Assembly: GCA_002909145.1 (NCBI GenBank)
Contig: PNQY01000062.1
Span: forward strand, 62,001-126,000
Reading direction: 5' to 3'
DNA: 64,000 bases
From: Candidatus Thioglobus perditus
GTDB taxonomy: Bacteria > Pseudomonadota > Gammaproteobacteria > PS1 > Pseudothioglobaceae
This document shows, in pieces, positions 7,884 to 49,742 of this stretch. A model generated the notes under the pieces. It was not told where the DNA came from and did no database searches. It worked only from the letters and a program-made list of their open reading frames with translations. The translations under genes and the position numbers were made by a program. Positions within the stretch are counted from its first letter, which is position 1; the number at the start of each line of letters is the position of its first letter.

Positions 7884-10652
7884 ATGTCTGATTACAAGTC
7901 AACCCTAAATCTACCTGCCACTAAGTTTGCTATGAAGGCAAACCTTGCTAATAGAGAGGGTGGTTTTCTAAAACACTGGCAAGACGATAATCTTTACGCA
8001 CGCATTCGTGAACATAATCAAGGTAAGCCAAAGTTCATCTTGCATGATGGCCCTCCGTATGCAAATGGCGATATTCATATTGGCCATGCTGTTAATAAAG
8101 TACTAAAAGATATTATTGTCAAATCAAAATCATTATCTGGTTTTGATGCTCCGTATGTTCCTGGTTGGGATTGTCATGGCTTGCCAATTGAGCTTAATGT
8201 TGAAAAAAAGAAAGGCAAAGTTGGAGTTAAGATTGATGCCAATACTTTTAGGGCAGAGTGCAGAAAATATGCTGATGTTCAAGTTGCTAAGCAAAAACAA
8301 GATTTTCAACGCTTAGGAATACTAGGCGATTGGGATAATTCGTACCTAACTAAAGATTTTCAATATGAAGCTGATATTGTGCGCGCACTAGGCAATATTG
8401 TTGAAAATGGCCATGTGTCAAAAGGCTATAAGCCAGTGCATTGGTGTACTGATTGTGGATCGGCTTTGGCTGAAGCAGAGGTTGAATACAAAGATAAACG
8501 CTCCGAAGCTATTGATGTTAAATTCCAAGTTATTGATGATGCTATCTTTGGTGTTGATAAGTCAGTTTTTGTTGTTATTTGGACAACCACGCCATGGACA
8601 CTGCCAGCTAATGAGGCAGTTGCTCTTCATCCGGAGCTTGATTATGTTTTGGTTGATACTGGTAGTGAGTATTTGTTACTGGCGCAAGCTTTGGCAGAAA
8701 ATGCAATTAGTCGCTATGGTATAGATGCTGTTATTTCTGATAAAACCTTCTCCGGTGTTGATTTAGAAGGCTTAAAAGCAAAACATCCTTTTTATGATAA
8801 ACAAGTGCCTATTATTCTAGGTGATCATGTAACCACCGAAGCTGGCACTGGTGCAGTGCATACAGCACCTGCACATGGTCAAGAAGACTTTGCTGTTGGC
8901 AGAAAATATAATTTGCCAGTTGAGTGTCCAGTAGACGGAAGAGGTGTGTTTTTTGAAGATACTGAACTTTTAGGTGGCCAGTTTATTTTTAAGGCTAATG
9001 CTAGTGTGATTGATATTCTAGAAAAAGCCAATACTCTTGTAAAGCATGAGTCTCTAGAGCACTCATATCCACATTGTTGGAGACATAAAACGCCAGTTAT
9101 TTTTAGAGCCACTCCACAGTGGTTTGTATCTATGCAACAAAATGGACTTAGAGATGTGGTTAATTCTGAGATTCCAAAAGTTAAATGGATACCTGATTGG
9201 GGGCAAAAGCGTATTGAGCTTATGGTTGGTAATCGACCTGATTGGTGTATCTCTCGCCAAAGATTTTGGGGTGTACCAATTACTTTATTTACACATAAGC
9301 AAACTGGAGAGCTACATCCAAATACAAATGAATTGTTTGATAAGATCTCAAGCATGATTGAAGAAGGTGGAATTGAGGCTTGGTTTGAAGCTAGCATTGA
9401 AGACTTGCTTGGTGATGATGCCGATAATTATGACAAGGCTACAGACACGCTAGATGTTTGGTTTGATTCTGGAGTTAGTCATTTTGCAGTGTTAAAAGCT
9501 AGAGAAGAGTTATCTGATGTGGCAGATTTATATTTAGAAGGGTCTGATCAACATCGCGGCTGGTTTCAGTCATCAATTATTTCTTCAGTGGCTATTAATG
9601 GCAAGGCGCCTTATAAGCAAGTTCTTACACATGGGTTTACTGTTGATAAGGATGGTAAAAAAATGTCAAAATCGCTTGGCAATGTTATGAGTCCACAAAA
9701 GGTGGTGAACAATTTAGGTGCAGATATCTTGCGTATGTGGATTGCATCAACAGATTACACTGGTGAGATGACAGTGTCTGATGAGATTCTAAAGCGTTCA
9801 GCTGATTCTTACAGAAGAATTCGTAACACAATACGTTTTATGTTGGCTAATACCGCTGGATTTAATCCAAAAGAACACCAGTTGGATGGCAATGAATTGT
9901 TAGATTTAGATAAATGGATTATTACAAAAACTGCTGAAATTCAATCACAAGTAATTGAATCTTATGATAATTATAATTTCCACAATGTAATGCAATTAGT
10001 GCTTAATTTTTGCACCAATGATCTTGGCGGATTTTATCTTGATATTATTAAAGACAGACAGTACACTACTACTGAGAATTCATTAGCAAGAAGAAGTGCT
10101 CAGAGCGCACTTAATCATATTGTTGAGTCAATGGTGCGTTGGTTGTCTCCAGTGTTGTCATTTACTGCAGAAGAGATTTGGCAAAACATGCCTAGTGAAA
10201 AGAATGGCAGTGTGTTCCTTGAATCTTGGTATGAAGACCTAACAAGTGGATATGAGAATGATGCAATTGATGCGGCTCGTGTAATTAACCCGCATATTCG
10301 TAAGCAAATGGAAGGCATGCGTAGTGAAAAAATTATTGGTTCTTCGCTAGACGCAGAGGTAGATATTTATTGCAATGATGATATTTATAAGTCACTGACA
10401 AAGTTAGGTGACGAGCTTAGATTTGTATTTATTACTTCATATGCTAGAATTCACCCATTAGACGAAAAAACTGACAAGTGTATTGAGGCTGGAGATGGAG
10501 TGTTTATTGAAGTTACTAAATCTGAGTATGAGAAATGTGTGCGTTGTTGGCATCACCGCGAAGATGTTGGTAGTAATGACAAACATCCAGAATTGTGCAC
10601 TCGCTGTGTTGAAAATGTGGCTGGTGATGGTGAAAAAAGAGAGTTTGCATAA
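7884..10652 (+). CDS. ileS: Isoleucyl-tRNA synthetase
   Basis: 922-residue class I synthetase charging tRNA-Ile, with an editing domain that removes mischarged valine. The signature [13 protein letters not shown] sits near residues 57-68, a [11 protein letters not shown] editing-domain motif near 235, and KMSKS near residue 593. The C-terminal zinc-binding region has two Cys pairs, CVRCW and CTRC, near residues 880-905. It is the short, eubacterial ileS1 type. No clear ribosome binding site precedes the ATG. The last base of its TAA is the first base of aroB, so the two are coupled. Confidence 0.96.
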
Positions 10653-46597: not shown

Positions 46598-46825
46598 GTG
46601 AGAAGATTAGCGGTATTGTTTGGATTTTTATTAAGTTTTAATGTTTTTGCAAGTGCGGAAGACGGTGTTAAGCCATTAGGAGCTAACCCAACAGATGAGC
46701 AAAAACAAGTTATTCGAGATGCTGCAAAGAACGCTTGTGATGAAAAAGAAGATGATGAGCGTGAAGAGTGTGTAATGGATTATTTTGCTAATCACAATTT
46801 AGAAGAAGAGCCAAGCTGTGATTAA
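46598..46825 (+). CDS. Small exported cysteine-containing protein of unknown function
   Basis: 75 residues if it starts at GTG 46598, which has an AAAGGGGG ribosome site about 9 bases upstream; the frame is open to a TTG at 46568 that has none. A signal peptide (MRRLAVLFGFLLSFNVFASA) leads to a mature part of about 55 residues, very rich in Asp and Glu, with three cysteines (NACDEKED, EECVMDY, PSCD). No family recognised. The odd cysteine number would allow one disulfide plus a free thiol. It lies 102 bases before the first exported rhodanese and may belong to the same functional group. Confidence 0.65.
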   Translation: MRRLAVLFGFLLSFNVFASAEDGVKPLGANPTDEQKQVIRDAAKNACDEKEDDEREECVMDYFANHNLEEEPSCD

Positions 46826-46927
46826 TCAAAAAAAGAATTTATAGTTTGATCATTTGAGAAGACTATAGGTATAGGTAATAAACTCGATAAAGAGTTATTT
46901 TTTAAAATAAAGAGGAGAGAAGTAAGT

Positions 46928-47557
46928 ATGAAACTTAAAACATTAGTAGTAAGCGCTGCATCAGTAGCATTATTAGCATCAACAGCTGTAACAGCTAAAC
47001 CTGTTGGTATCGTTAAAGGCGTTATGGACATTGCTGGTATTTCACGTAACCAAGACAATGCAGCGACAATCGACCCTGCGTTTGCAAAAACATCACGTCC
47101 TTGCCCACCATTTTGTATTCAACCAACTAATCCGTTTGCGCCTGCAGCAGTTGACACAGTTTCTGAGTTAGACATAATTCATGCGGTACGCGATTCAGCA
47201 GAATGGGAAGATGCTTCAGTCTTGGTGGTTGACGCACGTACACCGGGTTGGGTTAAGAAAGGTACAATCCCAAATTCAGTAAACGTTCCATTTACTAAGC
47301 TTAACTCTAAGGCATTAGCTAAAGATCCGATGGCTGTAGTAGATGTATTGACAGATAACTTTGGCGTGAAAGATATGGACGGCGTACTAAACTTTGATAA
47401 AGCTAAGACACTATACTTGTTCTGTAACGGTTCATGGTGTGGTCAGTCTCCAGCGTCAATTAGAGCATTGTTGACTATGGGTTACCCTGAGAACAAGATT
47501 AAGTACTACCGTGGTGGTATGAACGCTTGGAAATCTTTAGGTTTAACAACTAAATAA
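46928..47557 (+). CDS. Exported rhodanese-domain protein, copy 1
   Basis: 209 residues. Signal peptide MKLKTLVVSAASVALLASTAVTA, then KPVGIVKGVMDIAGISRN, a double-cysteine motif RPCPPFCIQP, and a rhodanese fold with VVDARTPGWVKKG and the active-site loop LFCNGSWCGQS (catalytic Cys near residue 166, second Cys five residues on), ending in YYRGGMNAWKSLGL. Rhodaneses carry sulfur as a Cys persulfide; the extra cysteines suggest thiol-disulfide control. A strong AGGAG ribosome site precedes the ATG, and codons are biased, so expression is probably high. Its own terminator follows at 47565. Paralogue of the next gene; substrate unknown. Confidence 0.85.
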   Translation: MKLKTLVVSAASVALLASTAVTAKPVGIVKGVMDIAGISRNQDNAATIDPAFAKTSRPCPPFCIQPTNPFAPAAVDTVSELDIIHAVRDSAEWEDASVLVVDARTPGWVKKGTIPNSVNVPFTKLNSKALAKDPMAVVDVLTDNFGVKDMDGVLNFDKAKTLYLFCNGSWCGQSPASIRALLTMGYPENKIKYYRGGMNAWKSLGLTTK

Positions 47558-47564
47558 TTGATTT

Positions 47565-47605
47565 AAAAGGCGCTCACTCTCACTAGCTGAGTGCCTTTTT
47601 ATTTT
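47565..47605 (+). terminator. Terminator between the two rhodanese genes
   Basis: GGCGCTCA (47569-47576) pairs with TGAGTGCC (47588-47595), one G-T pair, 11-base loop, followed by TTTTTATTTT. It lies 11 bases after the stop of copy 1, so copy 2 is transcribed by read-through or from its own start. Confidence 0.75.
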
Positions 47606-47616
47606 AGGAGATTATT

Positions 47617-48327
47617 ATGAAAACTAAATTATTAGTGGCTCTAGTAGTATCAACATTCGCTGTTGGCGCTCAAGCGGCTTCTTGTGGTTCAGCATGGAAC
47701 TGGAATACCTCTTGTTCTGACGCGAACAAGGAAAAAGTAAGGATTGCCGCTGAAATTGCTGCCAGTAAGCCTGTTGGTATCGTTAAAGGTGTTATGGAAA
47801 TTGCGGGTATTTCACGTAATACAAATAACTCAAACCTTGTTGATCCTGCGTTTGCAAAAACATCACGTCCTTGTCCACCATTCTGTATTCAACCAACTCA
47901 TCCGTTCGCACCTGCAGCAGTTGAGACGGTATCTGAGTTAGATATGATTCATGCAGTACGCGATTTAGCAGAATGGGGCGACGCTTCAATCTTGGTGGTT
48001 GACGCACGTACACCGGGCTGGGTTAAGAAAGGTACAATCCCACACGCAGTGAACGTTCCATTTACTAAGCTTAACTCTAAGGCATTAGCTAAAGATCCTA
48101 TGGCTGTTGTAGATGTATTGACAGCTAACTTCGGCGTGAAAGATATGGACGGCGTACTAAACTTTGATAACGCTAAGACACTATACTTGTTCTGTAACGG
48201 TTCATGGTGTGGTCAGTCGCCTGCGGCAATTAAAGCATTGTTAACTATGGGTTACCCGCAAAGCAAAATCAAATACTACCGTGGTGGTATGAATGATTGG
48301 AAATTGTTGGGCCTAACAGTTAAGTAA
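47617..48327 (+). CDS. Exported rhodanese-domain protein, copy 2
   Basis: 236 residues, paralogue of the preceding gene: about 24 differences over roughly 186 aligned residues by eye. It has a different signal peptide (MKTKLLVALVVSTFAVGAQA) and about 28 extra residues after it (ASCGSAWNWNTSCSDANKEK...), adding two cysteines. RPCPPFCIQP, VVDARTPGWVKKG and LFCNGSWCGQS are unchanged. AGGAG precedes the ATG. Large parts are identical in DNA, so this is a recent tandem duplication or is kept alike by gene conversion, with the N-terminal part replaced. Likely periplasmic sulfur transfer; partner unknown. Confidence 0.85.
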   Translation: MKTKLLVALVVSTFAVGAQAASCGSAWNWNTSCSDANKEKVRIAAEIAASKPVGIVKGVMEIAGISRNTNNSNLVDPAFAKTSRPCPPFCIQPTHPFAPAAVETVSELDMIHAVRDLAEWGDASILVVDARTPGWVKKGTIPHAVNVPFTKLNSKALAKDPMAVVDVLTANFGVKDMDGVLNFDNAKTLYLFCNGSWCGQSPAAIKALLTMGYPQSKIKYYRGGMNDWKLLGLTVK

Positions 48328-48328
48328 A

Positions 48329-48877
48329 TTGTTTTATGGTTTTAAGAAAGGGGCGTTAGTAGCGTCCCTTTTTTTTGTATTAAGTTTCTATTTTGCGCAT
48401 GCAAAAACCGAGACCAGGTTTGATCGTTGGTATCAAATTGGCTATGATTATTCCCAGATGGGTCGCAATGATGACGCATTTTTATGGATGTTAAAAGCTG
48501 CTGAAGGTGATCATATGGCTGCACAAAATAATATTGGCCTTAGTTATTTGCACGGGTTAGGCGCTAAAAAAGATAATAACAAGGCGTTTTATTGGTTTAA
48601 TAAGGCCGCTAATCAAGGATTGTCTTATGCACAGAGCGAGCTAGCAATGCTTTACTATAAGGGTAAAGGCGTTAAAAAGGACGACATCAAAGCTAAGCAA
48701 TGGTGGATGAATGCCGCCAAGCAAGAAGATGAGTATGCTCAGTTCAATTTAGCATCACTTTTTTTGGAAGAGGGTGATATAAAGCAAGCATATTATTGGT
48801 TTAATAGAGCTACTAAAAACAATCATCCATATGCCGATCATGCTATCGAATTATTAAATAAAGAGTATGTTGAATAA
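48329..48877 (+). CDS. Exported Sel1-repeat protein
   Basis: 182 residues from a TTG start at 48329, one base after the rhodanese stop. The signal peptide FKKGALVASLFFVLSFYFAHA needs this start; no ATG occurs before residue 43. The mature part is a row of Sel1/TPR-like helical repeats (for example NNIGLSYLHGLGAKKDNNKAF, SELAMLYYKGKGVKKDDIKA), built for protein-protein contacts in the periplasm. Its codons 7-16 form a strong terminator hairpin (48347-48376), so expression depends on read-through. Ends in an 11-base overlap with the next gene. Confidence 0.75.
   Translation: MFYGFKKGALVASLFFVLSFYFAHAKTETRFDRWYQIGYDYSQMGRNDDAFLWMLKAAEGDHMAAQNNIGLSYLHGLGAKKDNNKAFYWFNKAANQGLSYAQSELAMLYYKGKGVKKDDIKAKQWWMNAAKQEDEYAQFNLASLFLEEGDIKQAYYWFNRATKNNHPYADHAIELLNKEYVE
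48347..48376 (+). terminator. Strong terminator lying inside the Sel1 gene start
   Basis: AAAGGGGCG (48347-48355) pairs with CGTCCCTTT (48363-48371), one G-T pair, 7-base loop, followed by a run of T to 48376. It begins 20 bases after the rhodanese copy 2 stop and is within the Sel1 signal-peptide codons. Confidence 0.85.
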
Positions 48878-49742
48878 GTTATTTTTTATATTTATTGCAT
48901 TATATTTTCAGTCTAGTTTGGCATTTTTACCAAACTCCACAATATTTCCAGAATTGCCAAAAATTGGTGATTTTGATCCAAATTCGTTGCAAGAATTCTT
49001 TAATGAATTTACTCAGGCAAGGCCAAACTTAGAACGAGAGTCTCGTATGATAGGTGAAATTGAAGACTCAATAATGGATGGTGAAATAGAGTACTTGCAT
49101 CTTGATGGTGATAAGGAGTTTTCTAGTGTTTATATGGAGCCTGAAACCAACAGCCCAAAAGGTGGTGTGATTATCTTGCATTCTCGTGGTTACCATGCTA
49201 ATTGGGCTAGTGTGGTCCATCCTGTGAGAGTTGGTTTGGCAGAAAAAGGTTGGCATAGTCTTTCATTGCAGATGCCAGTATTGGAAAAAACTGCTAAATA
49301 TTATGATTATGTTCCGATTTTCCCCTACGCCCATGAGCGCATAGAAGCGGCAATTGATTTCTACAAACAGCGTGGTGTAGACAATATTGTGCTTATTGCC
49401 CATGGTTGTGGTGCGCATATGTCTATGAGTTATATCGATAAGTTTGGTGATGATAAAATTTCATCCTATGTTGGTATTGGTATGGGAGCAACTGACTATC
49501 GTCAAAAAATTGTTAAGCGGTTCCCTCTTGATAAGATGTTAGTGCCAGTTTTAGATGTGTTTGGAGAGAATGACTTTCCTGGGGTTATAAGACTCGCCCA
49601 GTCAAGAAAGTCTTTAATGGATATTTCTGGCAATGCGAAAAATGCACAAATAGTTATTGATAAGGCCGATCATTATTATAAAGAAGGTGATACATCGCGA
49701 GTATTGGTGGAGACTATTGATAATTGGCTAAGTGCCTTGTAA
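48867..49742 (+). CDS. Exported DUF3530 family protein (alpha/beta-hydrolase-like)
   Basis: 291 residues. Signal peptide MLNKLFFIFIALYFQSSLA, then a hydrolase-like fold: GGVIILHSRGYHANWASVVHPVR, ERIEAAIDFYKQRG, IVLIAHGCGAHMSMSY, and a C-terminal DVFGENDFPGV and DKADHYY. This pattern fits DUF3530 (PF12048). At the nucleophile elbow, where hydrolases read G-H-S-x-G, this protein reads A-H-G-C-G, so the serine is missing; Asp and His of a triad may remain. It overlaps the Sel1 gene by 11 bases and the convergent DUF455 gene by 15. Function unknown, perhaps non-enzymatic binding. Confidence 0.8.
   Translation: MLNKLFFIFIALYFQSSLAFLPNSTIFPELPKIGDFDPNSLQEFFNEFTQARPNLERESRMIGEIEDSIMDGEIEYLHLDGDKEFSSVYMEPETNSPKGGVIILHSRGYHANWASVVHPVRVGLAEKGWHSLSLQMPVLEKTAKYYDYVPIFPYAHERIEAAIDFYKQRGVDNIVLIAHGCGAHMSMSYIDKFGDDKISSYVGIGMGATDYRQKIVKRFPLDKMLVPVLDVFGENDFPGVIRLAQSRKSLMDISGNAKNAQIVIDKADHYYKEGDTSRVLVETIDNWLSAL

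Follow-up and report, generated by a model that had tools for sequence, protein, structure and literature searches.

SoxL-like rhodaneses duplicated outside the sox cluster: a candidate accessory sulfane-sulfur module in Thioglobaceae

SoxL has been proposed as the answer to what becomes of the sulfane sulfur of SoxYZ in bacteria without SoxCD. In Allochromatium vinosum its gene (Alvin_2171) lies in the order soxXAKL (PMC3368242; PMC10892978), and the protein is proposed to replace SoxCD by delivering the sulfane sulfur of SoxY to sulfur globules (PMC3368242). Two other described families are relevant here. One is SoxK, also termed SAXB, the SoxAX-binding protein. The other is DUF3530 (PF12048), whose members are described as having no catalytic triad and as probably non-enzymatic (PMC11878206); their described neighbourhood in Pseudomonas is lptD/murU.

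The window analysed here, a stretch of 64,000 nucleotides, comes from the 1.59 Mb genome of Candidatus Thioglobus perditus. It was compared with records of Candidatus Thioglobus, SUP05, Ruthturnera and Bathymodiolus symbionts as its near relatives (Thioglobaceae, family f1). It holds a block of five genes which, with a probability that we put at roughly 0.6, serves the periplasmic Sox system of thiosulfate oxidation in Thioglobaceae as an accessory module for sulfane sulfur, with Rho1 and Rho2 as its SoxL-like rhodaneses. The features of the block are as follows.

46598..46825, plus strand: acidic exported peptide with three Cys, 75 aa, GTG start (ORF reading)
46882..46903, plus strand: hairpin and T-run in the rho1 5' leader (AACTC..GAGTT ATTTTTT), kept in most relatives
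46928..47557, plus strand: Rho1, exported single-domain SoxL-like rhodanese (PF00581; C59/C63 in CPPFC, C166/C171 in CNGSWC)
47565..47599, plus strand: intrinsic-terminator-like hairpin separating rho1 from rho2 (predicted -17.1 kcal/mol)
47617..48327, plus strand: Rho2, second SoxL-like rhodanese (PF00581; leader 47617-47718)
48329..48877, plus strand: exported Sel1-repeat protein, TTG start immediately 3' of the rho2 stop (PF08238)
48344..48374, plus strand: intrinsic-terminator-like stem, 14 pairs followed by a T-run, within the sel1 signal-peptide codons
48867..49742, plus strand: exported DUF3530 alpha/beta-hydrolase-like protein, Gly replacing the nucleophile Ser (PF12048)

The five exported plus-strand ORFs that an earlier note had read from this DNA are indeed present, and the spacing is as it described, with one base between Rho2 and Sel1 and an 11-base overlap between Sel1 and DUF3530. 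The N-termini of all five proteins fit the signal peptides it had assigned, as judged by eye. Pfam finds PF00581 in both rhodaneses, three Sel1 repeats (PF08238) in the fourth protein and PF12048 in the last one, and an Rfam search of the five-gene block returned zero matches.

The grouping of these genes is not peculiar to the window. In about 20 Thioglobaceae genomes they are found together rather than scattered, in the same order (peptide, Rho1, Rho2, Sel1, DUF3530) and between rnhA and DUF455. Conservation of the block alone is weak proof of a joint function, because its flanks, leuC-asnB-rnhA and DUF455-rluE-ratA-smpB-hupB, show about the same degree of synteny. The adjacency of the exported genes might thus be a historical remnant in genomes that are small and syntenic, sulfur metabolism being served by the rhodaneses only, and the terminator-like elements between the genes would fit such a scenario. 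So would two genomes in which the rhodaneses have decayed: G001 retains intact peptide and DUF3530 genes, and in G019 the DUF3530 gene is the sole survivor of the block. We nevertheless consider this scenario quite unlikely, since elsewhere the block was lost cleanly and as a whole. In G006, G020 and G025 rnhA is directly followed by DUF455, at a distance of 2 bp in G006. The next gene after rnhA is an RluE-like gene in G002, and ratA in G009, G024, G029 and G033. These empty sites, in which rnhA abuts the downstream genes, indicate that the block is either present or absent as a whole, G001 and G019 being the exceptions. Moreover, insertions in G003 and G026 are found at the edge of the block and not within it, and DUF3530 genes adjoin members of the CPPFC/CNGxWC rhodanese family in three other lineages (G122, G242 and G290). 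Thus, the five genes are inherited as one module. In G010 and G014 the block has a single rhodanese. G007 has two Cys peptide genes (L041:6463-6705 and 9610-9852), the second one lying at the far block edge and in opposite orientation. Finally, the block is missing from several sox-bearing relatives, chiefly small symbiont genomes, and is therefore dispensable for Sox as such.

Both Rho1 and Rho2 are exported and have a single rhodanese domain with its active-site Cys. They are 80% identical overall and 87% identical in the core, which makes them closely alike, although "near-identical", the wording of the earlier note, is slightly too strong. The PCPPFC motif that it regarded as an extra of the two copies is real, but it is a signature of the wider rhodanese family, in whose aligned members CNGxWC is invariant. 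Rho1 and Rho2 occupy fixed positions and have distinct leaders, yet in G015, G018, G031, G003 and G007 their cores cluster within the genome, which points to concerted evolution of the catalytic cores, probably by gene conversion. A recent duplication was set aside as the cause of their likeness, since both positions are old and the cores still cluster within genomes. Scores for TIGR03865 (PQQ CXXCW) and TIGR04568 (SelU-like) lie far under the cut-offs. The AlphaFold model of Rho1 is moderate (mean pLDDT 74.6, and 52-60 for the first 60 residues), and a Foldseek search with this model gave only weak matches, all to rhodanese folds (best 3d1p, E 0.014). Thioglobaceae also encode a third rhodanese paralogue, which is devoid of CPPFC (L051:5874-6521; G000:C2:21879-22493); in G000 it shares a contig with soxA, about 21 kb away.

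A profile of the CPPFC/CNGxWC rhodanese family was searched in 369 Gammaproteobacteria genomes and gave matches in 82, and gene neighbourhoods were read for some 60 of the matches. SoxA was assigned with NCBIfam; SoxK was recognised by a clear match to the SAXB model, which lies under the cut-off of that model. The order soxA-soxK-rho is seen in G367, and in G037 and G381 it continues into soxB. In G131 and G245 SoxK and the rhodanese are fused, directly 3' of soxX-soxA (L176:7735-8697 and L182:7459-8430; pairwise comparison). Other family members adjoin soxZ-soxY-soxA (G340) or soxB (G193), or lie between a DUF3530 gene and soxXYZA (G242). Homologues of the pair are therefore encoded in soxXAK clusters, the position of SoxL, a protein with a proposed role (PMC3368242), and the system is not as "undescribed" as the earlier note had it.

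Most family members outside Thioglobaceae, however, adjoin unrelated genes rather than sox genes, and plasmid members in Salipiger, Hoeflea and Xanthobacter have no adjoining sox genes either. The rhodaneses might accordingly perform periplasmic thiol or persulfide housekeeping without a tie to Sox, detoxifying persulfides or cyanide or maintaining protein thiols; the cysteines of CPPFC and CNGxWC would be suited to thiol exchange as well. Co-occurrence with Sox would then only reflect that sulfur oxidisers make much sulfane sulfur. We regard such housekeeping as unlikely. Placement in sox clusters is repeated and independent and extends to fusion with SoxK, Rho2 carries a SoxK-type leader (see below), and SoxA is found in 77 of the 82 genomes with the family, compared to 85 of the 287 without it (Fisher 2e-27; common descent ignored). 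Within Thioglobaceae, SoxA is present in 20 of 21 genomes with the pair and in 8 of 15 without it (P 0.005; common descent likewise ignored). Of the sulfur or thiol handling in the periplasm that the earlier note suggested, sulfur handling is the best reading.

The Thioglobaceae sox clusters that we read have the order soxXYZA-soxK and then a DNA polymerase gene, and none includes a rhodanese. SoxCD is not known from Thioglobaceae and is absent from these clusters. What the pair has in common with SoxL is the architecture of an exported single-domain rhodanese, and a family that occupies the soxXAK-rho position and is linked to SoxA genome-wide. Likeness to SoxL was gauged via the soxXAK-linked protein of G367 as a stand-in for Alvin_2171; it is 48% identical to Rho1, and the G242 protein 50%. 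Unlike SoxL, the pair lies outside the sox cluster, is arranged in tandem with signs of gene conversion, has a SoxK-type leader on one copy, and is accompanied by the Cys peptide, Sel1 and DUF3530 proteins. In the tree it forms one clade beside the other paralogues of Thioglobaceae and falls outside the soxXAKL subclade (G367/G131/G245), and we therefore call it SoxL-like and not a SoxL orthologue. On our best reading of the sequences, these SoxL-like rhodaneses came to lie apart from the sox cluster and were duplicated, with gene conversion homogenising the copies.

Two kinds of leader connect the block with the sox cluster. The first one is the exported leader of Rho2, which together with the mature N-terminus (...HNWNNGSS in relatives) is common to SoxK and NapB; in G015, AGDSMPSTHNWN is found in both the SoxK and the Rho2 leader. 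Among 362 exported-looking ORFs of Thioglobaceae loci, only Rho2, SoxK and NapB reach Rho2-leader scores of at least 45; other kinds of protein score at most 38, a range into which some diverged Rho2 and SoxK copies also fall. The leader of Rho2 in the window is a diverged form of the one shared with SoxK and NapB. Rho2 itself is without a SoxK domain, and SoxK is encoded elsewhere in the genome, 3' of soxA. The three proteins are unrelated, yet they have one signal peptide and mature N-terminus (...QAxFFGxxHNWNN), which looks like the copying of a leader module between genes; copies are found at L197:8600-8920, L034:7809-8495 and L204:6440-7045 (G021) and at L228:3804-4280 (G000). A second soxYZ-like pair was read beside the nap operon in Thioglobaceae (L204:7557-8321 and L207:5351-6114).

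The second one is the 5' leader of rho1, consisting of a T-run, ATAT and GAGGAGAG with a hairpin upstream, and a similar leader precedes soxX. In G021 and G013 the pattern occurs at rho1 and soxX only. In G023 it is also found before the gene of a Gly/Asn/Trp-rich exported protein, and the single match in G000 precedes a solute-binding protein gene; the rho1 leader of the window does not match the strict pattern. We consider this link between rho1 and soxX to be of moderate strength, because a leader of this type might be no more than a sign of strong expression. The leader-bearing protein of G023 is an exported protein of 150 aa with NNGPW(G/N)N repeats (L308:1-1627, G023:C35; also L297, G023:C7), and is possibly sulfur-globule-like.

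The DUF3530 protein matches PF12048 with 102.8 bits, well above the gathering score of 29.8, and the earlier reading of a hydrolase fold without its nucleophile stands. The elbow of an active serine hydrolase is altered to AHGCGAH, with Gly in the five aligned Thioglobaceae block copies, whereas Ser is kept in the close homologues (26 of 27 outside the block); Ser is also missing from a few more distant homologues. The Asp and His columns are conserved. Its neighbours differ from those in Pseudomonas in being SoxL-like or sox genes, and in G036 a DUF3530 gene adjoins soxA. The protein probably acts as a partner without enzymatic activity. The three-Cys peptide is confined to the family, as judged from its sequence: its three Cys are invariant, all 17 aligned copies end in LEEEPSCD (the invariant end is also reported as NLEEEPSCD), a Pfam search gave zero matches, and no confident homologue was found outside Thioglobaceae. 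A relationship of the peptide to SoxK was rejected, since SoxK is found separately. For Sel1, the search for linkage beyond Thioglobaceae gave scattered weak matches only.

The short gene distances had been taken by the earlier note to imply a shared transcript. This is weakened by two terminator-like hairpins, one after rho1, present in most genomes compared, and one in the first sel1 codons. The predicted sel1 stem, which in the window occupies codons 6-16, has the G+C-rich stem and T-run of an intrinsic terminator and is conserved beyond coding need. It is present in 19 of 19 tested genomes with a rhodanese directly upstream, the window included, and a weaker version is found in G014, which has lost rho2. 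When the same Sel1 peptide was recoded synonymously, the strength of the stem was matched in 0-3.5% of the trials per genome. Pairing is kept in 98.1% of the cells, with nine double changes, only two base pairs varying on both sides. In a scan of 730 ORF starts such an element was detected at 16, all of which are sel1. Read-through is probably partial, and ribosomes starting at the sel1 TTG may open the stem.

If the block is an accessory module of Sox, Rho1 and Rho2 may be expected to act as SoxL is proposed to do in A. vinosum, and would accept the sulfane sulfur that remains on SoxYZ. The sulfur would be held as a persulfide on the active-site Cys of CNGxWC (C166 in Rho1), with the CPPFC pair possibly serving as relay or resolving thiols, and would then be passed to a periplasmic sulfur store or carrier. 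This transfer would free SoxY for another cycle. A more elaborate proposal, which we regard as very unlikely, is that the block is a self-contained station that unloads sulfur from SoxYZ in bacteria without SoxCD, the SoxL-like pair delivering it to the acidic peptide. One of the two enzymes would dock through its SoxK-type N-terminus, and the peptide would be a new family-specific sulfur carrier acting through its invariant C-terminal arm (...EEEPSCD), comparable to the Cys-bearing C-terminal arms of SoxY and DsrC. The nucleophile-less hydrolase would bind or scaffold, and a ribosome-dependent terminator in the sel1 signal-peptide codons would set the expression of Sel1 and DUF3530.

The sel1 stem, a coding-sequence element conserved beyond the need of the protein, is a separate and testable oddity of gene regulation. 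For SUP05 and other Thioglobaceae, which are important marine sulfur oxidisers, the locus provides a concrete candidate gene set for the fate of SoxYZ sulfur, and it names the DUF3530 protein and the small Cys peptide as possible partners of SoxL-like rhodaneses. The displaced pair also offers a reason why the Thioglobaceae sox clusters that were read have no soxL.
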